64,000 nt of DNA from Actinomycetospora chibensis (GTDB lineage: Bacteria; Actinomycetota; Actinomycetes; Mycobacteriales; Pseudonocardiaceae): positions 62,001 through 126,000 of the forward strand of contig NZ_JAQZAM010000001.1 in NCBI RefSeq assembly GCF_028737215.1, given 5' to 3'. The notes below the pieces were generated by a model. That model did no database searches. It was not told where the DNA came from and was given only the letters and a program-made list of their open reading frames with translations. Below are positions 14,492 to 26,844 of the stretch, piece by piece. How positions within the stretch are numbered: position 1 is the stretch's first letter; each line of letters opens with the position of its first letter. A program made the position numbers and the translations under genes.

Positions 14492-15547
14492 GTGACGACG
14501 TTCGCCGACCACCGCGACACCACCGTCCACATCCTCTGGATGAACGCCGGACTGTCGTGCGACGGGGACTCGGTGGCCCTCACCGCGGCCACCCAGCCGA
14601 GCATCGAGGAGATCGCGCTCGGTGCGCTCCCCGGGCTGCCGACGGTCGCGGTGCACTGGCCGCTGATCGACTTCGAGTCCGGCCCGGTCGGCGGCTCCCA
14701 GTCGTTCATCGACTGGTTCTTCAAGGCCGAGCGGGGCGAGCTGGACGGGCCCTTCGTCCTCGTCATCGAGGGCTCGATCCCCAACGAGTCGATCAAGTCC
14801 GAGGGGTACTGGTGCGGCTTCGGCAACAACCCGGTGACCGGGCAGCCGATGACCACCAGCGAGTGGATCGACCGGCTCGCCCCCAAGGCCCTGGGCATCC
14901 TCGCCGTCGGGACGTGCGCGACCTACGGCGGCATCCACGCCATGGCCGGCAACCCGACCGGCGCGATGGGCGTCGCGGACTACCTGGGCTGGGACTGGAC
15001 GTCCTCCGCCGGCCTGCCGATCGTCAACGTCCCGGGCTGCCCGGTGCACCCGGACAACTTGTCCGAGACGATCCTCTACTTGCTCTACCAGGCCGTGGGC
15101 GACGCCCCGATGATCCCGCTCGACGAGGCCGGCCGTCCGACATGGCTGTTCGGCGCCACCGTGCACGAGGGCTGTGACCGCGGCGGCTACTACGAGCAGG
15201 GCCAGTTCGCCACCGAGTACGGCTCACCGGAGTGCCTGGTCAAGCTCGGCTGCTGGGGCCCGGTCGTGAAGTGCAACGTCCCCAAGCGCGGCTGGATCAA
15301 CGGCGTCGGCGGCTGTCCCAACGTGGGCGGCATCTGCATCGGCTGCACGATGCCCGGATTCCCGGACAAGTTCATGCCGTTCATGGACGCCCCGCCGGGC
15401 AGCAAGGTCTCCGGGGCGGCGAGCGGCGCCTACGGCGTGGTGATCCGCAAGCTGCGCGACATCACGGCGAAGACCGTCGACTCCGAACCGCGCTGGCGCC
15501 GCCCGGGCCGGCAGCTGACGACCGGATACCGGCCCACCGCGTTCTGA
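14492..15547 (+). CDS. hhyS: [NiFe]-hydrogenase small subunit, group 1h (high-affinity type)
   Basis: FeS electron-transfer subunit of an H2 uptake hydrogenase. The 351 residues begin without a Tat signal, so the enzyme is cytoplasmic, unlike membrane-exported group 1 uptake enzymes. NAGLSCDGDS shows a Cys followed by Asp at the proximal-cluster site, fitting the 3-Cys/1-Asp ligation reported for the Ralstonia eutropha enzyme of this group. Further cluster ligands lie in GTCATYGG, VPGCPV, HEGCDRGG, SPECLVKLGCWGP and GGICIGCTMPGFP. Sequence character matches the actinobacterial atmospheric H2 oxidisers. GTG start; hhyL follows after 50 bases. Confidence 0.95.
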   Translation: MTTFADHRDTTVHILWMNAGLSCDGDSVALTAATQPSIEEIALGALPGLPTVAVHWPLIDFESGPVGGSQSFIDWFFKAERGELDGPFVLVIEGSIPNESIKSEGYWCGFGNNPVTGQPMTTSEWIDRLAPKALGILAVGTCATYGGIHAMAGNPTGAMGVADYLGWDWTSSAGLPIVNVPGCPVHPDNLSETILYLLYQAVGDAPMIPLDEAGRPTWLFGATVHEGCDRGGYYEQGQFATEYGSPECLVKLGCWGPVVKCNVPKRGWINGVGGCPNVGGICIGCTMPGFPDKFMPFMDAPPGSKVSGAASGAYGVVIRKLRDITAKTVDSEPRWRRPGRQLTTGYRPTAF

Positions 15548-15597: not shown

Positions 15598-17403
15598 ATG
15601 ACCGCCGTGGCACCGAAGAGCTCGACCGGCACGAAGACCGACCTCGTCGAGATGGCGTGGGACCCGATCACGCGCATCGTCGGCAGTCTCGGCATCTACA
15701 CGAAAATCGACTTCGCGGCGAAACGCGTCGCCGAGTGCCACTCGACGTCGTCGATCTTCCGTGGCTACTCCATCTTCATGAAGGGCAAGGACCCGCGGGA
15801 CGCGCACTTCATCACGAGCCGGATCTGCGGCATCTGCGGCGACAACCACGCGACGTGCTCGGTCTACAACCAGAACATGGCCTACGGGGTGCGCCCGCCG
15901 CACCTGGGCGAATGGATCATCAATCTCGGCGAGGCCGCCGAGTACATGTTCGACCACAACCTCTACCAGGACAACCTCGCCTGCGTGGACTACTGCGAGA
16001 AGATGGTCGCGGACACGAACCCCGGGGTCCTCGAGCTCGCGAACCGGACGCCGAGCCCGCACGCCGAGGACCACGGCTTCCGCACCATCGGCGACATCAT
16101 GCGGGCCCTCAACCCGTTCACCGGCGAGTTCTACCGCGAGACGCTGAAGGTCTCCCGCTACACGCGCGAGATGTTCTGCCTGATGGAGGGGCGTCACGTC
16201 CACCCGTCGACGCTCTATCCCGGCGGGGTCGGCACGGTGGCGACGATCCAGCTCCTCACCGACTACATGACCCGGCTCATGTGGTACATCGAGTTCATGA
16301 AGCGGGTCGTGCCGATGCACGACGATCTCTTCGACTTCATGTACGAGGCGCTTCCCGGCTACGAGGAGGTCGGTCGCCGCCGCGTCATCATCGGCTCGTG
16401 GGGGGCGTTCAACGACCCGGAGCACTGCGATTTCGACTACAAGACCATGTCGAACTGGGGACGGAAGATGTTCGTCTCCCCCGGGGTCGTGGTGGACGGC
16501 AAGCTGGTGACGACCGATCTCGTCGACATCAACCTCGGCATCCGCATCCTGCTCGGCAGTTCCTTCTACCGCGGCTGGGAGGACCAGGAGAAGTTCGTCG
16601 ACCGCGACCCGCTCGGCAACCCGGTCTCGATGGACCACCCCTGGAACCAGCACACGATCCCGGCGCCGCAGAAGCGCGACTTCGACGACAAGTACTCGTG
16701 GACGATGTCGCCGCGTTGGTTCGACGGCACCGACCACCTCGCGATGGACACCGGCGGCGGCCCGCTCCCCCGGCTGTGGGTGACGGCGCTCGCCGGTCTG
16801 GTCGACGCCGGCGGCTACGTCCGGTCGACGGGCCACAGCGTCGAGCTCAACCTCCCGCGCACGGTGTCGAAGCCCGAGAAGACGTTCACGTGGACCCCGC
16901 CGGTCGACAAGCAGGGGCGGCCGCTGTCCAACGCCATCGAGCGGGACCGCGCCCGCACGTACTTCCAGGCCTACGCGGCCGCAGCGGCGATGCACTTCCT
17001 GGAGAAGGCGCTCGCCGAGGTCCGCGGCGGGAACACCAAGACCTGGGAGTCGTTCGTCGTGCCCGACGAGTCGGTGAGCGTCGGGTTCACCGAGGCCGTC
17101 CGCGGCGTCCTGTCGCACCACATGGTCGTGCGCGACGGGAAGATCGCGAACTATCACCCGTACCCGCCGACGCCGTGGAACGGCAGCGTCCGCGACAAGT
17201 TCGGGACGCCCGGCCCGTACGAGGACGCCGTGCAGAACACCCCGATCTTCGAGGAGAACGGACCGGAGGACTTCAAGGGCATCGACATCATGCGGGCGGT
17301 GCGCAGCTTCGACCCCTGCCTGCCGTGCGGGGTGCACATGTACCTCGGCAACGGCAAGCAGTTGCACCGGGAGACCTCGCCGACCCAGCTGAACCTGCCC
17401 TGA
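15598..17403 (+). CDS. hhyL: [NiFe]-hydrogenase large subunit, group 1h
   Basis: Catalytic subunit holding the Ni-Fe(CN)2CO site. Of 601 residues, the L1 motif RICGICGDNH supplies Cys77 and Cys80 and the L2 motif DPCLPCGVH supplies Cys574 and Cys577. A 21-residue tail after His580 should be clipped by the maturation protease encoded downstream once nickel is inserted. AGAAGGGA stands ahead of the ATG. The stop overlaps the start of the NifU-like gene, beginning a chain of overlaps that runs to hypE. The early FRGYSIFMKGKDPRDAH stretch is typical of this clade. Confidence 0.96.
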   Translation: MTAVAPKSSTGTKTDLVEMAWDPITRIVGSLGIYTKIDFAAKRVAECHSTSSIFRGYSIFMKGKDPRDAHFITSRICGICGDNHATCSVYNQNMAYGVRPPHLGEWIINLGEAAEYMFDHNLYQDNLACVDYCEKMVADTNPGVLELANRTPSPHAEDHGFRTIGDIMRALNPFTGEFYRETLKVSRYTREMFCLMEGRHVHPSTLYPGGVGTVATIQLLTDYMTRLMWYIEFMKRVVPMHDDLFDFMYEALPGYEEVGRRRVIIGSWGAFNDPEHCDFDYKTMSNWGRKMFVSPGVVVDGKLVTTDLVDINLGIRILLGSSFYRGWEDQEKFVDRDPLGNPVSMDHPWNQHTIPAPQKRDFDDKYSWTMSPRWFDGTDHLAMDTGGGPLPRLWVTALAGLVDAGGYVRSTGHSVELNLPRTVSKPEKTFTWTPPVDKQGRPLSNAIERDRARTYFQAYAAAAAMHFLEKALAEVRGGNTKTWESFVVPDESVSVGFTEAVRGVLSHHMVVRDGKIANYHPYPPTPWNGSVRDKFGTPGPYEDAVQNTPIFEENGPEDFKGIDIMRAVRSFDPCLPCGVHMYLGNGKQLHRETSPTQLNLP

Positions 17404-17933
17404 TGGAGCCGCCGGAGACCGAGCGGGTCGCCGAGAGCATCGCCGAGCTGCTCGACTCGATGTCGGCCGACCCCGCCGCGCGCGAGGCCGGCGAGGACCT
17501 CGTGCGCGTCCTCATGGAGTTCTACGGCGCGGGCCTCGCCCAGATGGTGTCGATCGTCCGTCTCGGGTCGGGCGACGCGCTCGTCCACCGGCTCGCCGCG
17601 GACCCGCTCGTGGCGGCGCTGCTCGCCCTGCACGACCTGCACCCCGTCGACCTCCCGACGCGGGTCGGCCACGGGATCGACACGGCCCGGCGCCGCCTGG
17701 GCCACCACGGCGCCGGCATCAGCCTCGAGCGCGTCGACACCCACACCGGCACCGTCCATGTCGCGCTGGCGCCGGGCTGCGGCTCGTCGTCGGACACGGT
17801 GCGCGACGTCGTCCGGACCGCCGTCTCCGAGCTGGCCCCGGAGGTCGTCGCCGTCGAGTTCGTCACCGAGCCCGCCGGGCCGGCGCTGCTGCAGATCGGG
17901 GTGCGGCCCCCGAGTTCGGTGGCGGGGTCGTGA
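17403..17933 (+). CDS. NifU-like protein of the hydrogenase cluster
   Basis: 176 residues. The C-terminal part (VALAPGCGSSSDTVRDVVRTAV followed by EVVAVEF) has the layout of the NifU C-terminal FeS scaffold domain, but only one Cys is present where the canonical domain has CxxC, so it may bind a cluster only as a dimer or act as a docking factor. The N-terminal helical part is cluster-specific. Similar genes follow hhyL in other actinobacterial group 1h loci. The start overlaps the hhyL stop (TGATG). A role in FeS loading or electron relay is inference. Confidence 0.75.
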   Translation: MEPPETERVAESIAELLDSMSADPAAREAGEDLVRVLMEFYGAGLAQMVSIVRLGSGDALVHRLAADPLVAALLALHDLHPVDLPTRVGHGIDTARRRLGHHGAGISLERVDTHTGTVHVALAPGCGSSSDTVRDVVRTAVSELAPEVVAVEFVTEPAGPALLQIGVRPPSSVAGS

Positions 17934-18586
17934 CGGCCTCCCTGCGCCGCTTCCTGGCGCCCCGACAGGCCCCGCCGGTCGCACCGACGGTGGAGCGCTG
18001 CGAGCTGTGCGCGGGCGAGGTCGCGCCCGAGCACCCGCACCTCGTCGACGTCGCCGGGCGGGTGCTGAAGTGCGCGTGCCGCCCGTGCGCGCTGCTCTTC
18101 GTCGACCGCACCCGGGAGATGGCCGGCACCGCGTACCGCACGGTGCCCGACCGCTACCGGTACGACGCGGAGTTCACCCTCGCCGACGCGCAGTGGGACG
18201 CCCTGCAGATCCCGGTCGGGATGGCGTTCTTCCTGCGCAACTCGGTGCGCGCGGACGCGGTGGTGGCCTGCTACCCGAGCCCGGCGGGCGCGACCGAGAG
18301 CGAGCTCGACCTGTCGGAGTTCGTCGACGGCGTCGGCGCAGGCCGGCTCGGCGAGATGCTCGAGCCCGATGTCGAGGCGCTGCTCGTGCGGCACGACTCC
18401 GGACGCTCGGAATGCCTGCTGGTGCCCGTCGACGCGTGCTACCGGCTCGTCGGCCTCGTTCGGCGGCACTGGCGGGGGTTCGACGGCGGCGCCGAGGCGT
18501 GGACCCACATCGACCGCTTCTTCGACGACGCCCGCGCACGGGCCCGCGACGTGGGGGGCAGCCACCGAGGAGGGCCGAGCAGATGA
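17930..18586 (+). CDS. DUF5947 family protein, hydrogenase-associated
   Basis: 218 residues. The N-terminus has CELCAGEV and, later, CACRPCALLF, a four-Cys arrangement suggesting a zinc or FeS site. The rest is a mixed alpha/beta domain with no known catalytic motif. Family members occur next to group 1h hydrogenases, so a role in assembly or electron transfer is likely but unproven. GTG start overlaps the upstream stop by 4 bases, and its own stop overlaps the next ATG. Confidence 0.78.
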   Translation: MTASLRRFLAPRQAPPVAPTVERCELCAGEVAPEHPHLVDVAGRVLKCACRPCALLFVDRTREMAGTAYRTVPDRYRYDAEFTLADAQWDALQIPVGMAFFLRNSVRADAVVACYPSPAGATESELDLSEFVDGVGAGRLGEMLEPDVEALLVRHDSGRSECLLVPVDACYRLVGLVRRHWRGFDGGAEAWTHIDRFFDDARARARDVGGSHRGGPSR

Positions 18587-19254
18587 CCCTGCCCTTCCCC
18601 CGCGCCGCCCCGGGACCTGCGTTCGGGTTCGCGGTGACCCACGCCGACCACGACCCGCAGGCCGCCGGCCCGACCCTGCGGCTGCACACCACGATCACCG
18701 AGACCACGGGCACGCGGGTCCACGCCCTCGCCCTGCGCGCCCAGATCCGGCTCGAGCCCGCCGCACGGCGCTACTCCCCCGACCAGCAGGAACGCCTCGT
18801 CGAGCTGTTCGGCGACCCGTCGCGCTGGGGCCGCACGCTCAACCCGATGCAGCTGGCGACCGTGTCGACGGTGACGCCATCGTTCTCCGGCGAGCAGGAG
18901 GTCGTGTTCGAGGTCCCGCTGACGTTCGACACCGACGTCGCGACCACGCGCTACTTCCGGGGGGTCGGCGACGAGGGTGACGCCCCGATGCGCCTGTTGT
19001 TCAGCGGCACCGTCTTCTACGAGGCCCCGTCGGGCGTGCAGATCGGGCTCGTCCCGTGGCATTCGGAGGCCACGTTCCGGCTGCCGGTCGCCGTGTGGAC
19101 GGACATGATGGACGCCCACCAGCACGGGATGGCGTGGCTCCGGCTCCCGGAGCACACGCTCGCCGAGCTCGGCGCCTGGCGTGCGGCGCGGGCGCTGCCC
19201 ACGTGGGAGCAGACGTTCACGGCCCTGCTCGCCGCGGCGGGTGACGGGCCATGA
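18583..19254 (+). CDS. DUF6084 family protein, hydrogenase-associated
   Basis: 223 residues, beta-rich with no signal peptide, membrane helix or Cys pair. Segments such as RYSPDQQERLVELFG and PLTFDTDVATTRYF are characteristic of DUF6084 proteins found in group 1h clusters. Function unknown. Position in an unbroken overlapping gene chain argues it is needed for the hydrogenase itself. ATG start inside the DUF5947 stop. Confidence 0.75.
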   Translation: MTLPFPRAAPGPAFGFAVTHADHDPQAAGPTLRLHTTITETTGTRVHALALRAQIRLEPAARRYSPDQQERLVELFGDPSRWGRTLNPMQLATVSTVTPSFSGEQEVVFEVPLTFDTDVATTRYFRGVGDEGDAPMRLLFSGTVFYEAPSGVQIGLVPWHSEATFRLPVAVWTDMMDAHQHGMAWLRLPEHTLAELGAWRAARALPTWEQTFTALLAAAGDGP

Positions 19255-20612
19255 CCGCCACCGACCCCCTCGACGCCCTCGACACTGTGGCCGCGATCGC
19301 CGACGCCGTGCTCTTCGAGGGCTACCTGCTCTACCCCTACCGCGCCTCGGCGCAGAAGAACGCGCTGCGCTGGCAGTTCGGGGTCCTCGTGCCGCCTGCG
19401 GTGTCGGCGGCCCTCGCCGAGCCCTCGGCCAGCCGCACCGAGTGCGTGATCGACGCCCGGCCCGGCGCGACGCTGCGGCTGCGCCTGCGGTTCCTCGGCC
19501 TGCAGCGCCGGAGCGTCGTCGACGCCGACGGCACGGAGCACGACCGCCTCGAGGTCGACGGCGTCCCCCATACCGCCTGGGAGGAGGGCGTGCCGCGCCA
19601 GGTCGACGCCGCCGTCGCACTCGACGCGCTGGCCGAGGCTCCGGTGACCGTCGACGTCACGTGCCCGGCCACCACGACCTCGGAGGAGATCCGCGACGCG
19701 ACGGGCGCGCTGCGCGGGCACCTCGTCCGGCGCGCCGAGGCCCTCACCGGGCGGGTGGTGCTCGCGACCGAGCCGCTCCCCGGGCCCTACGGCGCGCTGC
19801 GGCTGCGTCTGGACGTGGTCAACGACGGTGTCGCCGACCCGTCCGCGCCGCGCGCGGAGGCCCTGCGGACGGCCCTGATCTCGGCGCACACCGTGCTGGG
19901 CCTCGACCGCGGCGCGTTCCTCTCGAGTGCCGATCCGCCGCAGTGGGCCGCGTCCGCCGTGGCGGCCTGCGTCAACGCGCACAGCTGGCCGGTGCTCGCC
20001 GGCCCCCCGGGAGACGGCTCGCTGCTGCTCGCGACGCCGATCATCCTCGAGGATCACCCGCAGCTGGCCCCGGAGAGCCCGACGAACCTGTTCGACGGCA
20101 CCGAGAACGACGAGATCCTCGCGCTGCGCACTCTCGCCCTCACCGACGACGAGAAGCGCGAGGCCCGGGCCACCGACCCGCGTGCCGCCCACATCGTCGA
20201 CGCGGTCGACGCCATGGGCCCGGCGATGTTCGAGCGTCTGCACGGCGCGATCCGCCCCGACGGCCGCGCGCCGGACGACATCCCGACGCTGGCCACCCCG
20301 GGCACGCCCTGGTGGGACCCGGGCGCCGACGCCTCGGTCGACCCCGACTCCGACGAGGCCCTCGTCGACGGGCGCCCCGTCGTGCGCGGCAGCTCCGTGA
20401 TCCTCGTGCCGGGCCGCGGCAGCGACGCCCAGGACACGTTCCTGCGCGGTGCCGCGGCCACCGTCCAGGCCGTCCTGCGCGACGTCGACGGCGGCACCCA
20501 CGTCGCCGTGTCGCTCGACGACGACCCGGGCGCCGACCTCCAGGCCACCCACGGCCGCTTCCGCTACTTCCGGCCCGACGAACTGGCCCTGGCCGACGGG
20601 GGGCCCTCATGA
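19251..20612 (+). CDS. Conserved protein of the group 1h hydrogenase cluster, unknown function
   Basis: 453 residues, soluble, acidic. It opens with an Asp/Ala-rich helix, then EGYLLYPYRASAQKNALRW, and ends GRFRYFRPDELALADG. No catalytic or metal motif is recognised. The size, the overlapping ATGA junctions on both sides and its place between DUF6084 and the maturation protease indicate a dedicated hydrogenase accessory factor. I recall proteins of this look in other actinobacterial hhy loci, but no characterised role. Confidence 0.72.
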   Translation: MTATDPLDALDTVAAIADAVLFEGYLLYPYRASAQKNALRWQFGVLVPPAVSAALAEPSASRTECVIDARPGATLRLRLRFLGLQRRSVVDADGTEHDRLEVDGVPHTAWEEGVPRQVDAAVALDALAEAPVTVDVTCPATTTSEEIRDATGALRGHLVRRAEALTGRVVLATEPLPGPYGALRLRLDVVNDGVADPSAPRAEALRTALISAHTVLGLDRGAFLSSADPPQWAASAVAACVNAHSWPVLAGPPGDGSLLLATPIILEDHPQLAPESPTNLFDGTENDEILALRTLALTDDEKREARATDPRAAHIVDAVDAMGPAMFERLHGAIRPDGRAPDDIPTLATPGTPWWDPGADASVDPDSDEALVDGRPVVRGSSVILVPGRGSDAQDTFLRGAAATVQAVLRDVDGGTHVAVSLDDDPGADLQATHGRFRYFRPDELALADGGPS

Positions 20613-21136
20613 AGGTCCTGGTCGCCGGGGTGGGCAACGTCTTCTTCTCCGACGACGGCTTCGGCTCCGAGGTGGCGCGGCGCCTGCTCGCCGACCCCGG
20701 TGCGCTGCCGGCGTCGGTGGACGTCGTCGACGTCGGCATCCGCGGCATGCACCTCGCCTATCAGGTGCTCGACGGCTACGAGGCGCTGGTGGTCGTCGAC
20801 GCAGCCGCCCACATCGACGACGGTGCCGCGGGCGAGCCGGGGACGCTGACCCTCGTCGAGCACGACCTCGCGGCCGCCACCGGTGACGCCGCCTTCGACC
20901 CCCACGGCATGGAGCCCGACGCCGTCCTCGAGCTCGTCGGCGCGCTGGCCCGCGGCGTCGGCGAGGGCGGCGTCGACCGCGTGCTCGTCCTGGGCTGCGT
21001 GCCCGCCGACGTCGGGGCCGGCATGGGGCTGAGCCCGCCGGTGGCCGCCGCGGTCGACGAGGCCGTCGACACCGTCGGCCGGATCGTCGAGCGCCTGATC
21101 GAGCACCGTCCCTTCACCGAGGTGGGAGCGTCATGA
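20609..21136 (+). CDS. Hydrogenase maturation protease (HyaD/HycI-like)
   Basis: 175 residues, M52-type endopeptidase that checks nickel insertion and removes the C-terminal tail of HhyL. The GNVFFSDDGFG motif at the start contains the acidic nickel-contacting residue, ALVVVDA the second acidic site, and DPHGMEPDAVLEL the conserved His. Length fits the family. Starts in a 4-base overlap with the preceding gene and ends in ATGA with the small peptide gene that follows. Confidence 0.92.
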   Translation: MKVLVAGVGNVFFSDDGFGSEVARRLLADPGALPASVDVVDVGIRGMHLAYQVLDGYEALVVVDAAAHIDDGAAGEPGTLTLVEHDLAAATGDAAFDPHGMEPDAVLELVGALARGVGEGGVDRVLVLGCVPADVGAGMGLSPPVAAAVDEAVDTVGRIVERLIEHRPFTEVGAS

Positions 21137-21237
21137 CCAAGAAGATCCTGTTGCTGGGACTGATCGGGGGCGTCGGCTGGATCGCGTGGGAGTCGCGCAC
21201 CGACGTCCAGCGCTACCTGCGCCTGCGGGCGATGTAG
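21133..21237 (+). CDS. 34-residue membrane-anchor-like peptide in the hydrogenase operon
   Basis: Begins MTKKILLLGLIGGVGWIAWE and ends RYLRLRAM. A short basic start, one hydrophobic helix of about 15 residues and a basic amphipathic tail suggest a membrane-associated micropeptide. The ATG overlaps the protease stop (ATGA) and the stop is 4 bases before the hypA GTG, so it is set into the translational chain exactly like its neighbours. Peptides of this type (annotated as DUF6893 small proteins, from memory) occur in other group 1h loci. It could tether the soluble hydrogenase to the membrane; that is inference. Confidence 0.78.
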   Translation: MTKKILLLGLIGGVGWIAWESRTDVQRYLRLRAM

Positions 21238-21241
21238 CGCC

Positions 21242-21613
21242 GTGCACGAGTTCGGGGTGGCCGCCGCGGTGCTCGAGGCCGTCGACGCCCGGGCCGCCGG
21301 GCGCCGCGTCCGCGCGCTGCGGCTGCACGTCGGCGCGCTGCAACGGCTCGACCGGGCGGTGTTCGACCAGGCCTTCGCGATGATCGCCGACGGGGGCGTC
21401 GCGCAGGACGCGACGGTCGACGTCGTCGAGGTCGCCGTCGAGATCCGCTGTCGCGGGTGCGCCGCGACGGCGACCGGCACCGAGCTGATCACGACGTGTC
21501 CGGGCTGCGCGGGCCACGACCTCGAGCTCGTCGCAGGCGACGACCTCGTCCTCGAATCGATCACGCTCGCGGACCGGGACGCCCCGGTCCGCGCGGAGCA
21601 GGAGGTGGGCTGA
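21242..21613 (+). CDS. hypA: Hydrogenase nickel-incorporation protein HypA
   Basis: 123 residues. The GTG start is followed directly by His-Glu, giving the N-terminal MHE that binds nickel. The zinc domain has the pairs CRGC and CPGC, about 20 residues apart. HypA normally passes nickel to the large subunit together with HypB, but no hypB is present here. Its stop overlaps the hypC ATG. Confidence 0.93.
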   Translation: MHEFGVAAAVLEAVDARAAGRRVRALRLHVGALQRLDRAVFDQAFAMIADGGVAQDATVDVVEVAVEIRCRGCAATATGTELITTCPGCAGHDLELVAGDDLVLESITLADRDAPVRAEQEVG

Positions 21614-21900
21614 TGTGCCTCGGCATCCCCGGTGAGCTCGTCGAGCTCGCCGACGACGACACCGATCTCGCGACGGTCTCCGTCGCCGGGGTCCGGCGGA
21701 AGGTCAACGTCGGGCTCCTGATCGAGGACGAGGAGCTCGCCGTCGGCGACTGGATCCTCATCCACGTCGGCTTCGCGCTGGCCAAGATCGACGAGGCCGA
21801 GGCGGCCGCCGCCCTGGACATGCTGCACAGCATGGGCCCGGCCTACGACCAGGAGCTCGAGGAGTTCGTGGCCTCCTCGACCGGGAGGGAGGGACTGTGA
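21613..21900 (+). CDS. hypC: Hydrogenase assembly chaperone HypC
   Basis: 95 residues starting MCLGIPGELVEL; the Cys after the initiator Met is the residue that binds iron and the large-subunit Cys. The C-terminal helix ends in an acidic stretch. HypC carries the Fe(CN)2CO unit with HypD to the large-subunit precursor. Junctions on both sides overlap (TGATG with hypA, GTGA with hypD). A second, divergent HypC-like gene lies at 26841. Confidence 0.94.
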   Translation: MCLGIPGELVELADDDTDLATVSVAGVRRKVNVGLLIEDEELAVGDWILIHVGFALAKIDEAEAAAALDMLHSMGPAYDQELEEFVASSTGREGL

Positions 21901-23048
21901 AGTACGTCGACGAGTTCCGCGACGGCGACACCGCCCGCGCGATCGGCACCCGCATCGCCGCGCTCGCCGAGCCGGGCCGGCGCTACGCCTTCATGGAGGT
22001 GTGCGGCGGGCACACGCACACGATCTACAAGCACGGCCTCGAGGACCACCTGCCCGCATCGATCCGGCTCGTGCACGGCCCCGGCTGCCCGGTCTGCGTG
22101 CTGCCGATGGGGCGGGTCGACGACGCGATCGCCATCGCCCGCGACCCGGACGTCATCATGACGGCGTTCGGCGACATGATGCGCGTCCCGGGCAGTGACG
22201 GCTCCTTCTTCGACGCCAAGGCCGAGGGCGCCGACATCCGGATGGTCTACTCCCCGCTCGACGCCCTGAAGATCGCGCGGGCGAACCCGGAGCGCCGCGT
22301 CGTGTTCATGGCCATCGGGTTCGAGACGACCACCCCGTCGACGGCGATGACGATCCTGCGGGCGGCGCGCGAGGGACTCGAGAACTTCTCGGTGTTCTGC
22401 AACCACGTCGTCGTCATCCCGCCGATGACCGCGATCCTCGACTCCCCCGACCTGCGCCTCGACGGCTTCATCGGGCCCGGGCACGTCTCGACGATCATCG
22501 GTTGCGAGCCCTACCGGTTCATCGCATCCGAGCGCGGCAAGCCGCTGGTGGTCGCGGGGTTCGAGCCGCTGGACATCCTGCAGTCGATCCACCAGCTGAT
22601 GGTCCAGCTCGCGGAGGGACGCTGCGAGGTCGAGAACCAGTACGGGCGCGTCGTGCCCTGGGACGGCAACCGCCGCGCGCTCGAGGTGGTCGACGAGGTC
22701 ATGGAGCTGCGCGACACCTTCGAGTGGAGGGGATTGGGCTGGATCCCGGAGTCGGCGCTGCAGCTGCGCGAGGCCTACGCCGCCTTCGACGCGGAACGGC
22801 TCTTCACCATCCCGGGCCGGCGCGTCGCCGACCCGAAGGCCTGCCAGTGCGGCGACGTGCTGCAGGGCGCGCTGGAGCCGTGGGAGTGCGGGGTGTTCGG
22901 GACGGCGTGCACCCCGGAGACGCCGATCGGCACCTGCATGGTCAGCTCCGAGGGCGCCTGCGCGGCGTACTACAACTACGGGCGGTTCAGCCGCTCGCGC
23001 ACCCGCGGTGCGACGGCTCTCCCGGACCCGGTGGTGGTGGGCCGGTGA
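21897..23048 (+). CDS. hypD: Hydrogenase maturation factor HypD
   Basis: 383 residues, the scaffold on which the Fe(CN)2CO unit is built. VCGGHTHTIYKHG holds the conserved iron-site Cys and His residues, GPGCPVCVLP the redox Cys pair, and KACQCGDVL with later CGVFGTACTP the 4Fe-4S ligands. Normal length. GTG start overlaps the hypC stop. Confidence 0.96.
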   Translation: MKYVDEFRDGDTARAIGTRIAALAEPGRRYAFMEVCGGHTHTIYKHGLEDHLPASIRLVHGPGCPVCVLPMGRVDDAIAIARDPDVIMTAFGDMMRVPGSDGSFFDAKAEGADIRMVYSPLDALKIARANPERRVVFMAIGFETTTPSTAMTILRAAREGLENFSVFCNHVVVIPPMTAILDSPDLRLDGFIGPGHVSTIIGCEPYRFIASERGKPLVVAGFEPLDILQSIHQLMVQLAEGRCEVENQYGRVVPWDGNRRALEVVDEVMELRDTFEWRGLGWIPESALQLREAYAAFDAERLFTIPGRRVADPKACQCGDVLQGALEPWECGVFGTACTPETPIGTCMVSSEGACAAYYNYGRFSRSRTRGATALPDPVVVGR

Positions 23049-24537: not shown

Positions 24538-24607
24538 GTGCGCTGCGCGCACGTGAGCACTTTGGGGTGCCGGAGCCCCCGAAAGTGCTCACGTGCGCGC
24601 AGCGCAC
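24538..24607. terminator. Perfect 26-bp hairpin between convergent hydrogenase arms
   Basis: Arms 24538-24563 and 24582-24607 are exact reverse complements with an 18-base loop whose GGGG and CCCC can extend the pairing. It starts 5 bases after the stop of the 107-residue ORF, and the right arm encodes the last codons and stop of hypF (stop 24589-24591). The inner arm ends in GTGAGCACTTT. Very likely a bidirectional terminator. Confidence 0.85.
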
Positions 24608-26844
24608 ACGGCGACCTGGCCGAGGGCGATGCCGCCGTCGGTGCACGGCACCCGGGTGGGCACGAGGACCCGCAGGCCCGCGGCCTCCAGCCCGGCGCGG
24701 ACCCGCTCGAGCAGGACGGCGTTGACGAAGACCCCGCCCGAGAGGGCCGCGGTGTCCACCCCGTGCTCGCCGGCGAGCCGGGCCACGGCGGCGACCGTCG
24801 CGTCCGCGAGCCCGTGGTGGAAGCGGGCGGCGATCCGGCCCGTCCCGACGCCGGCCGCCAGGTCCTCGACGACCGCGGCGACCAGCTCGCCCCCGGGCAG
24901 GACGTCGCCGGCGGTGACCGGGTAGGTGCCGCGCTCGTCGGGGTCGACGCGCTGCTCGAGCTCGATCGCGGCCTGGCCCTCGTACGTGACGGCGTCGCGC
25001 ACCCCCAGCAGCGCCGACACCGCGTCGAACAGCCGCCCGACGCTGGACGTGGGCGGCGACGCCGTGCCGGAGCGCGCCAGGGCGACCACGGCGTCCCAGC
25101 GGTCGGCGTGGCGGTCGCGCACGGCCGACCGCGCGTCACCGACGTAGGCCGCGGCCATCCGCCAGGGCTCGCGCACGGCGGCCGCCCCGCCGGGCATCGG
25201 GACCGTGGCCAGGTGCCCGACGCGGCGGTAGCCGCCGAGGCCGGCGAGCAGCAGTTCGCCGCCCCAGATCGTGCCGTCCTCGCCGAACCCGGTGCCGTCG
25301 TAGGCGACCCCGAGCACCGGCGGGTCGTCGGGCGTCGCCCCGTGCTCGGCGAGGCAGGCGGCCACGTGGGCGTGGTGGTGCTGCACGCCGACCGTCTCGA
25401 GCTCGGGCTCGGCGTCGGCGCGGTCGAGGGCGTACCGGGTGGCGAGGTAGTCGGGGTGCAGGTCGTGCGCGAGCACGAGCGGGGTGATGCCGAACAGGCG
25501 GCCCAGGTGCTCGGTCGCCTCGTGGAACGAGCGCAGCGCGGCCGGGTTCGTGAGGTCCCCGAGGTGCGGGGACAGGACGGCGCGGCGGCCGGCGGCGAGG
25601 CAGATCGCGTTCTTGACCTCGGCGCCGCACCCCAGCACCGGGCGGCCGACGTCGAAGGCGAGCGGCACGGGCTCGGGGGCGTACCCGCGGGCGCGGCGGA
25701 CGGGCAGCTCCGCGCCCCGGTGCAGGCGCACCACCGAGTCGTCCGTGCGGACGTGGATCGGGCGGTCGTGGGTGAGGAACCCGTCGGCGAGGTCCGCCAG
25801 GCGTGTGCGGGCGTCGCCGTCGACGTGGGCGATCGGCTCGTCCGAGGTGTTCCCGCTGGTCAGCACGAAGGGCACGCCGAGCTCGGCGGCGAGCAGGTGG
25901 TGCAAGGGGGTGTACGGCAGCATCACCCCGAGGTCACGGTTGCCCGGCGCGACGGCCGGCGCCACCGCCGCACCCGGGATGCGCGGCAGCAGGACGATCG
26001 GCGCCCGGCGCGACCCGAGCGCCTGCGCCGCAGCCGACCCGACCTCCACCAGGGCGCGGGCGTCCTCCAGGGAACCCGCCATCACCGCGAACGGCTTCTC
26101 CTCGCGGTGCTTGGCGGCCCGCAGCCGGGCCACGGAGTCCGCGGCGTCGGCGCGGACCGCGAGGTGGTACCCGCCGAGCCCCTTCATGGCCAGCACCGCC
26201 CCGTCGCGCAGCCGGGACGCGGCCTCGCGCACCGGATCGCCCGGGCCCCCGGGTCCGGCGGGCTCCAGGACCAGCGTCGGCCCGCAGTCGGGGCAGCACG
26301 TCGGCTGGGCGTGGAAGCGCCGGTCGGCGGGGTCGTGGTACTCGGCGGCACACGGCGCGCACATCGTGAAGCCCGCCATCGTCGTCGTCGCCCGGTCGTA
26401 CGGGACGTCGCGGACGATCGTGTAGCGGGGTCCGCAGTTCGTGCAGTTGACGAACGGGTAGCGGTGCCGCCGGTCGGCGGGGTCGCGCATCTCGGCGAGA
26501 CAGTCGGCGCACGTGGCGGTGTCCGCCGCCACGAGTGCGGTCCGCGCGCCGGTGACCGCGCTGCCGGTGATGACGAGCCCGTGGGATCCCGTCGGCGGGA
26601 TGGCCTCCGACCGGACGGACTCGACCACGGCCAGGGCGGGCGGCCGCTCGCGGAGAGCGAGGACGAAGTCCCGGACCGCCGCCTCGCCGCCCTCGACCTC
26701 GACGACCACTCCGGCGGCGTCGTTGCCGACGGAACCCGCCAGGCCCAGCTCCCGGGCGAGGCCGTGCACGAAGGGTCGGAAGCCCACGCCCTGCACGATG
26801 CCCTCGACGTGCACCCGCACGCGGACCGGCGCCGTGGCGGTCAC
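24589..26844 (-). CDS. hypF: Carbamoyltransferase HypF
   Basis: 751 residues, makes the thiocarbamate on HypE from carbamoyl phosphate, first step of cyanide ligand synthesis. Domains in order: acylphosphatase-like 1-90 (VEGIVQGVGFRPFVHG), two zinc-finger pairs around 110-185 (CADC, CTNCGP, CAPC, CPDCGP), YrdC-like domain around 200-370, and the Kae1-like domain with HHHAHVAACLAEHG near residue 490. Complete. GTG start overlaps the hypC2 stop; the 3' end is embedded in the terminator hairpin. Confidence 0.96.
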   Translation of the reverse strand: MTATAPVRVRVHVEGIVQGVGFRPFVHGLARELGLAGSVGNDAAGVVVEVEGGEAAVRDFVLALRERPPALAVVESVRSEAIPPTGSHGLVITGSAVTGARTALVAADTATCADCLAEMRDPADRRHRYPFVNCTNCGPRYTIVRDVPYDRATTTMAGFTMCAPCAAEYHDPADRRFHAQPTCCPDCGPTLVLEPAGPGGPGDPVREAASRLRDGAVLAMKGLGGYHLAVRADAADSVARLRAAKHREEKPFAVMAGSLEDARALVEVGSAAAQALGSRRAPIVLLPRIPGAAVAPAVAPGNRDLGVMLPYTPLHHLLAAELGVPFVLTSGNTSDEPIAHVDGDARTRLADLADGFLTHDRPIHVRTDDSVVRLHRGAELPVRRARGYAPEPVPLAFDVGRPVLGCGAEVKNAICLAAGRRAVLSPHLGDLTNPAALRSFHEATEHLGRLFGITPLVLAHDLHPDYLATRYALDRADAEPELETVGVQHHHAHVAACLAEHGATPDDPPVLGVAYDGTGFGEDGTIWGGELLLAGLGGYRRVGHLATVPMPGGAAAVREPWRMAAAYVGDARSAVRDRHADRWDAVVALARSGTASPPTSSVGRLFDAVSALLGVRDAVTYEGQAAIELEQRVDPDERGTYPVTAGDVLPGGELVAAVVEDLAAGVGTGRIAARFHHGLADATVAAVARLAGEHGVDTAALSGGVFVNAVLLERVRAGLEAAGLRVLVPTRVPCTDGGIALGQVAVCAART

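Follow-up and report, generated by a model that had tools for sequence, protein, structure and literature searches.

How a soluble hydrogenase could be held at the membrane is the question raised by an operon in a 64,000-nucleotide stretch of the Actinomycetospora chibensis genome (contig NZ_JAQZAM010000001.1, positions 62,001 to 126,000; hereafter the window), in which a 34-codon frame is wedged between hycI, the gene for the hydrogenase maturation protease, and hypA. We tentatively favor, at close to an even chance, the reading that this frame encodes a small membrane-tether subunit of the group 1h [NiFe]-hydrogenase specified by the same operon. The proposal draws on the predicted topology of the peptide, on synteny, and on published findings that group 1h enzymes associate with membranes; it is the best reading because these enzymes have been reported to be membrane associated while lacking membrane helices.

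According to PMC5364354, the group 1h small subunit is without a C-terminal anchor helix, and the two group 1h subunits of strain SolV are described as having neither a membrane helix nor a signal peptide (PMC7174314). In the same account, activity in the solubilized membrane fraction of SolV exceeded that in the soluble fraction more than 2.5-fold, the isolated enzyme had a lower affinity than the membrane-associated one, and it was suggested that an unknown partner could be responsible for the membrane attachment (PMC7174314). Group 1h enzymes oxidize atmospheric H2, and membrane association seems essential for their high affinity, its cause being given as unknown in the literature (PMC7174314, PMC6883350); how Hhy of M. 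smegmatis passes electrons to the respiratory chain is likewise left unresolved there (PMC6883350). The conserved small protein that the gene cluster also encodes is a concrete candidate for the cause of this association.

A DUF6893 peptide in a group 1h operon

As read from the sequence, the frame (21133..21237, plus strand) opens with an ATG at 21133-21135 that overlaps the TGA stop of hycI at 21134-21136 (ATGA) and closes with a TAG at 21235-21237, separated by four bases (CGCC) from the GTG start of hypA at 21242. Both junctions agree with a first-pass annotation of this DNA, which had placed the start inside the protease stop and the end 4 bases 5' of hypA. The translation, MTKKILLLGLIGGVGWIAWESRTDVQRYLRLRAM, has a basic start, one short hydrophobic stretch, and the C-terminal tail TDVQRYLRLRAM. 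The annotation had also held that so exact a position was not due to chance, and this is borne out by a score above the gathering cutoff of a Pfam family and by the recurrence of a relative beside hycI in most of the group 1h loci examined; an origin as a chance frame is ruled out by homology.

The family in question is PF21833 (DUF6893), against which the peptide scores 29.6 bits (gathering cutoff, 24.6; expectation value [E], 6.9e-7), with residues 4 to 34 aligned to positions 2 to 32 of the 32-position profile. It is the only Pfam family listed for the peptide at an E of up to 1, and the peptide is the sole PF21833 match in the genome that holds the window. Judged by this score, the peptide is a member of PF21833, the "DUF6893 family small protein" of NCBI, a catalogued family without an assigned function that has the same length, helix, and tail; a novel family is thereby ruled out. 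Among NCBIfam models, only a subthreshold match was obtained, to DLW-39 (NF038356; 13.2 bits against a cutoff of 24), which rules out membership in that family of short actinobacterial proteins, whose start is similar to that of the peptide (the match covers residues 3 to 20). A profile search of 5.8 billion proteins (7990 candidates scored) returned 1229 entries at an E of up to 0.01; of the best 120 of these, 117 carried PF21833, and the names of these 120 were mostly "DUF6893 family small protein" or "hypothetical protein." Of 10 relatives tested, 8 passed the PF21833 cutoff, their sources being Chloroflexota, Acidobacteriota, Verrucomicrobiota, C. necator, and a mycobacterial plasmid; those of Methylocystis and of one member of the Rhodospirillales did not. 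No paper naming DUF6893 was found in the open-licence PMC literature; as far as searches of that literature go, the link between this family and group 1h hydrogenases is new, and so is its occurrence in six phyla.

The enzyme of the operon is, by its motifs and its closest solved relative, a group 1h [NiFe]-hydrogenase nearest to the actinobacterial-type enzyme of C. necator. The large subunit HhyL (15598..17403, plus strand) carries TSRICGICGDNH at residue 73 and SFDPCLPCGVH at residue 570, the group 1h large-subunit motifs being taken from PMC5364354, and its best match in the PDB is the C. necator enzyme 5aa5_C, at 1030.9 bits compared with 150.9 for the next best. The small subunit HhyS (14492..15547, plus strand; PF14720 and PF01058) has no clear C-terminal membrane helix by hydropathy, its maximum over 19 residues being 1.45, at residue 41. 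From HhyS to HypD, no operon protein shows a clear membrane helix by hydropathy (19-residue maximum, 1.45). The statement of the first-pass annotation that the cluster holds no membrane subunit therefore stands as far as hydropathy goes, but the same measure leaves the peptide itself unclear (1.30).

Distribution across group 1h loci

The association with group 1h hydrogenases was examined in 396 actinobacterial genomes searched for both PF21833 and HhyL, the sameness of the two genome sets being judged from the listed handles. Because at most 19 candidates per genome were scored for PF21833, its counts are lower bounds: at least 38 genomes had a PF21833 match, and 59 had an HhyL match. PF21833 was found in 30 of the 43 genomes whose HhyL match reached 60% identity and in 8 of the 353 others (Fisher p about 1e-27, a nominal value because the genomes are related). 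Three of these eight matches (G292, G297, and G426) are partial and tail-less and lie inside frames of 528 to 795 amino acids (aa); in the remaining five, the peptide is on a contig with other hydrogenase genes (L100, with an hhyS remnant, L103, L105, L047, and L114). Sixteen genomes have only HhyL relatives of 37 to 44% identity, and PF21833 was seen in two of them (G288 and G332). Counted by place, 66 distinct actinobacterial PF21833 matches, or 63 after the three partial ones were dropped (these were kept among the 8 of 353), include 60 with a hydrogenase gene in the fetched flank, one of them beside a broken hhyS remnant (L017).

Some copies have other surroundings or company. One lies beside a Na+/H+ antiporter-DsbA fusion (L095, 9991-10095), one near nuo genes (L098, 7014-7118), and one beside an acyl-coenzyme A dehydrogenase gene (L102, 2459-2564). 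L100 (G238:C1:2941500-2956500), in a genome of the same taxonomic order as the window, has hyp genes, hycI, and the peptide beside the hhyS remnant; hhyL was not found there, and the hydrogenase seems to be in decay. Two genomes that belong to one family have a second DUF6893 form (QSxPDFQRYxQLRDM) adjoining a protein of the HypC type (L104, 2152-2253; L075, 1742-1843), this neighbor being recognized by Pfam in L104 only and similar by eye in L075. In L076 (G229), hycI is flanked by two DUF6893 copies in one cluster.

Viewed from the enzyme, 40 of the 45 actinobacterial HhyL places at 60% identity or more were fetched, the others being the window itself and partial matches (G180, G259, G112:C293, and G294). 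A tail-bearing peptide is present at 26 of the 40, and L088 has a divergent one ending in WRYAKFEGM. In a second streptomycete clade (L084, L085, and L087), a small protein has a hydrophobic stretch followed by E-[ILF]-P-[GS]-[LM]-x-RE-x-[KR]-I-x-RM and 11 further residues; we read it, from this pattern, as a diverged DUF6893 relative. This form spans 4627-4920 in L084 and 6967-7179 in L087, and the same form occurs on the S. cattleyicolor plasmid (L119, 13174-13356). Five places are cut by contig ends or fragmentary (L056, L077, L079, L092, and L094), L059 has no hycI either, and no peptide was found at L086, L089, L090, and L091 among these 40 loci. In an HhyL tree rooted with two relatives of 37 to 45% identity, the L089-L092 clade (support, 0.995) branches first, and the branch joining all other sequences has a support of 0.59; gain of the peptide after this split and loss within that clade both fit.

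The peptide is not restricted to Actinomycetota. Of 12 plasmid records with HhyL, 6 were opened: pHG1 of C. necator H16 encodes MKGFLKYLVLPALVVALLANIKDIRRYIRIRSM in a 33-codon frame between the group 1h protease gene and hypF (L115, 17642-17743; NC_005241.1, 66753-66854), the M. parvus plasmid encodes MGLFEIILGLLILALIAFNFRDIVRYIKITMM, M. intracellulare, S. fungicidicus, and Embleya plasmids carry further peptides, and S. cattleyicolor has the diverged form. None of these peptides is in the gene tables shown, which are incomplete according to PLSDB and empty for Embleya and S. cattleyicolor. A tblastn search of the plasmids with the 34-mer alone gave no match, though relatives exist there; they were reached via HhyL. 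A named set of 80 HhyL loci from the genome collection, in which more than 80 such loci exist, covers Actinomycetota, Pseudomonadota, Acidobacteriota, Chloroflexota, Verrucomicrobiota, and Planctomycetota, and the peptide was found at 68 of the 80, in each of the six phyla; three of these (L121, 8.8 bits; L164, 7.4 bits; L172, 6.3 bits) were admitted by position and tail more than by score. Ten of the 12 loci without it end before or inside hycI, and at L148 a copy lies further along the same contig, beyond the fetched part, the identity of the contig being shown by its length of 19,393 and the position of hypD; L162 has no peptide at the locus and no PF21833 match in its genome. Thus, 69 of 70 assessable loci in six phyla have a relative, either at this junction or in another part of the cluster; the first-pass annotation would have been refuted by the lack of a conserved peptide at this position in related clusters, and on this point it stands.

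Topology, tail, and candidate roles

What the relatives share above all is the tail. Among 132 distinct peptides, it is close to P-D-[ILVA]-[RKQ]-R-Y-[LIM]-[RK]-[IML]-R-x-M, with P in 101, D in 117, R in 131, and Y in 131, in a set preselected for [YL] at position -7 and M at position -1. Among 115 matches of at least 12 bits to a search hidden Markov model (HMM), the last residue is M in 114, residue -7 is Y in 113, and residue -8 is R in 114; these frequencies are not independent because the seeds of the HMM carried the tail. The window peptide ends in RYLRLRAM directly before its stop, and the L002 copy extends 3 residues beyond the tail Met. In a chosen alignment of 38 sequences, only R, Y, and the last M are invariant, and conservation is far stronger in the tail than in the helix. 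In Acidobacteria there are also longer forms that end in this tail, and a long form accompanies a short one in L138, L142, L210, and G494; the start codons assigned to short forms were picked by rule and may be wrong for some, above all for the long acidobacterial forms.

A single helix spanning residues 2 to 33 is modeled by AlphaFold (32 sequences; mean predicted local distance difference test score, 94; predicted template modeling score, 0.45). In 127 short forms, Lys and Arg residues together average 0.83 on the N-terminal side of the most hydrophobic 17-residue stretch and 4.29 on its C-terminal side, with the larger number on the C-terminal side in 123 of the 127. By the positive-inside rule, the positively charged side of a membrane helix faces the cytoplasm; therefore, this bias would put the tail in the cytoplasm, on the same side as an enzyme that has no export signal, and predicts a topology with the N terminus outside and the basic tail inside.

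On the tether reading, the single helix would sit in the membrane in this orientation, the tail would dock on the cytoplasmic complex of HhyS and HhyL (possibly with HhyE) and hold it at the membrane, and electrons from H2 would thereby reach the (mena)quinone pool. Nearly all assessable group 1h clusters have such a helix, with a conserved tail that is predicted to be cytoplasmic, and this fits the gap in the membrane attachment of these enzymes. A more far-reaching version, which we hold to be possible but doubtful, is that DUF6893 supplies the membrane subunit that group 1h enzymes have been missing, as a minimal helix whose C-terminal RYLxIRxM-COOH tail plugs in near the electron exit and puts the soluble, oxygen-tolerant enzyme on the membrane, allowing quinone reduction and affinity for atmospheric H2. 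If this were true, one 34-residue peptide would decide between a soluble, low-affinity hydrogenase and a membrane-bound, high-affinity one. A small protein that causes the membrane association could also explain why the purified two-subunit enzyme binds H2 more weakly than the membrane-associated enzyme and could help in building hydrogenase biocatalysts.

The peptide would then work like known small subunits and anchors, via a separate and minimal part. In membrane-bound group 1 hydrogenases, an anchor helix at the C terminus of the small subunit holds the catalytic dimer at the membrane; the peptide would likewise be a single helix holding such a dimer but differs in being encoded by a separate gene and in its predicted cytoplasmic tail, which faces a cytoplasmic enzyme. 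HucM, which is described as scaffolding the group 2a hydrogenase Huc and forming its membrane stalk, addresses the same problem of linking a soluble hydrogenase to membrane menaquinone (PMC10017518), but it is a different scaffold: the peptide has 34 residues and no HucM-type match. Homology to HucM, with its long coiled-coil stalk, is ruled out by this length and by the lack of any sequence match of the peptide to PDB chains at an E of up to 10.

Several observations weigh against the tether. C. necator H16 carries the peptide despite having a group 1h enzyme (HofK and HofG, corresponding to HhyS and HhyL) that is described as cytoplasmic (PMC7174314). The layout of basic start, short hydrophobic helix, and basic tail that the first-pass annotation had proposed is recognizable, but in the window copy the helix is only borderline hydrophobic, with a Kyte-Doolittle value of 1.59 over 17 residues and 1.30 over 19, values that are equaled or exceeded by the best stretches of its soluble neighbors (over 17 residues, 1.74 in HycI, 1.61 in HhyE, and 1.60 in HypD; over 19, 1.45 in HhyS). 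Among ATG frames of 25 to 60 aa in the window, 1 of 64 reaches 1.59, presumably the peptide itself, and relatives have values of 1.6 to 3.45 over 15 residues in a listing that took only values above 1.6. Selection also appears weak in the genus of the window (nine sequences; median ratio of nonsynonymous to synonymous substitution rates [dN/dS], 0.77; ratio of the corresponding proportions [pN/pS] in the tail, 1.58). The purifying selection that the first-pass annotation had looked for in the codon pattern is thus weak in the genus of the window but is evident as constraint in the mycobacterial-type set (28 sequences; median dN/dS, 0.34; tail, 0.34) and the streptomycete-type set (9 sequences; 0.57; tail, 0.31). 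To these points are added three of the 63 actinobacterial copies that lie outside hydrogenase loci (L095, L098, and L102), a group 1h clade with hycI in which no peptide was found (L089, L090, and L091), and the closeness of the peptide to hycI.

The last point is at the heart of a different explanation, in which the peptide is a maturation factor that recruits HycI, or the large subunit undergoing maturation, to the membrane, or else helps the protease act, and is absent from the finished enzyme. Such a role would explain the adjacency of the two genes: of the 66 named loci that have both, 64 place them on one strand and no more than 220 bp apart, in either order, the peptide usually following hycI and preceding it in mycobacteria and their relatives. 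It would also suit L099, where a clear hycI lies upstream of hhyS and the peptide is directly preceded by a second stretch resembling HycI (33.5% identity; E, 5.5e-4), so that L099 is rejected as a case of hycI having moved away. Two verrucomicrobial genomes (G542 and G652) speak otherwise: their peptides end about 110 bp before the HhyS match, directly upstream of hhyS-hhyL, and hycI, the gene for a conserved 453-aa protein, and a DUF6084 match are on the other strand, an arrangement that favors a partner of the enzyme over a helper of the protease. These two peptides match the search HMM at 23.1 and 24.2 bits and have the tail RYLRIRQM; PF21833 itself gives no match. At L096, DUF6084 precedes the peptide and hycI was not found in the 16 kb fetched at an E of up to 4, and at L129 (opposite strand) and L155 it lies 3 to 4 kb upstream of hhyS and far from hycI. 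A strict protease helper is weakened by all of these loci; L089 to L091, where hycI does without a detectable peptide, also count against a maturation role, which we regard as unlikely.

We think it similarly improbable, if anything slightly more so, that the peptide is an accessory subunit that stabilizes or activates the hydrogenase complex or a redox partner without anchoring it. The model here is CydX, a 37-aa, single-helix protein that is encoded in the operon of a respiratory enzyme and required for cytochrome bd activity (PMC4325964). Size, helix, and operon position are alike, and the far stronger conservation of the tail than of the helix would suit such a role; yet the enzyme of CydX is an integral membrane complex and that of the peptide is soluble, and the group 1h catalytic subunits show no membrane part against which the helix could pack. 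No homology to CydX was found, the Pfam search at an E of up to 1 reporting only DUF6893. It is very improbable, finally, that DUF6893 represents a small membrane protein of general use, with a tail motif on the cytoplasmic side, that just happens to be encoded often in hydrogenase operons and has its function elsewhere. The three copies outside hydrogenase loci, and L100, where a genome from the taxonomic order of the window keeps the peptide and HhyL was not found, are what one would expect of such a protein; the hydrogenase neighborhoods of 60 of the 63 actinobacterial copies, and the rarity of PF21833 in genomes without group 1h (8 of 353), are not.

The verrucomicrobial genomes G542 and G652 (2.5 and 2.2 Mb), with three and four matches, respectively, to PF02461 (methane/ammonia monooxygenase), are methanotroph type; the verrucomicrobial methanotrophs given with hhy in PMC5364354 are only strains SolV and Kam1, and on that ground both genomes probably belong to Methylacidiphilum. 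In L099, the segment 6402-7229, directly before the peptide, holds a diverged frame with similarity both to the end of the 453-aa protein and to HycI.

The surrounding operon

The order of genes in the operon is hhyS, hhyL, the hhyE-like gene, the DUF5947 and DUF6084 genes, the 453-aa gene, hycI, the peptide, hypA, hypC, and hypD, all on the plus strand and with mostly overlapping junctions. The hhyE-like gene (17403..17933) encodes a NifU-type protein of 176 aa, its start and frame likewise checked, with a subthreshold match to PF01106 in the frame that contains it, and C. necator has a "NifU family protein" in the same place. It is followed by the genes for the DUF5947 protein (17930..18586; PF19372) and the DUF6084 protein (18583..19254; PF19562, with start and frame verified) of group 1h clusters. 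On the other side of the 453-aa gene, hycI (20609..21136; PF01750) runs into the peptide, and hypA (21242..21613; PF01155), hypC (21613..21900; PF01455), and hypD (21897..23048; PF01924) complete the series; a hypF-like frame, recognized by eye, lies downstream on the opposite strand (24589-26844). The 453-aa protein (19251..20612) has no Pfam family at an E of 0.001, and its gene is conserved near hycI in the group 1h clusters of six phyla.
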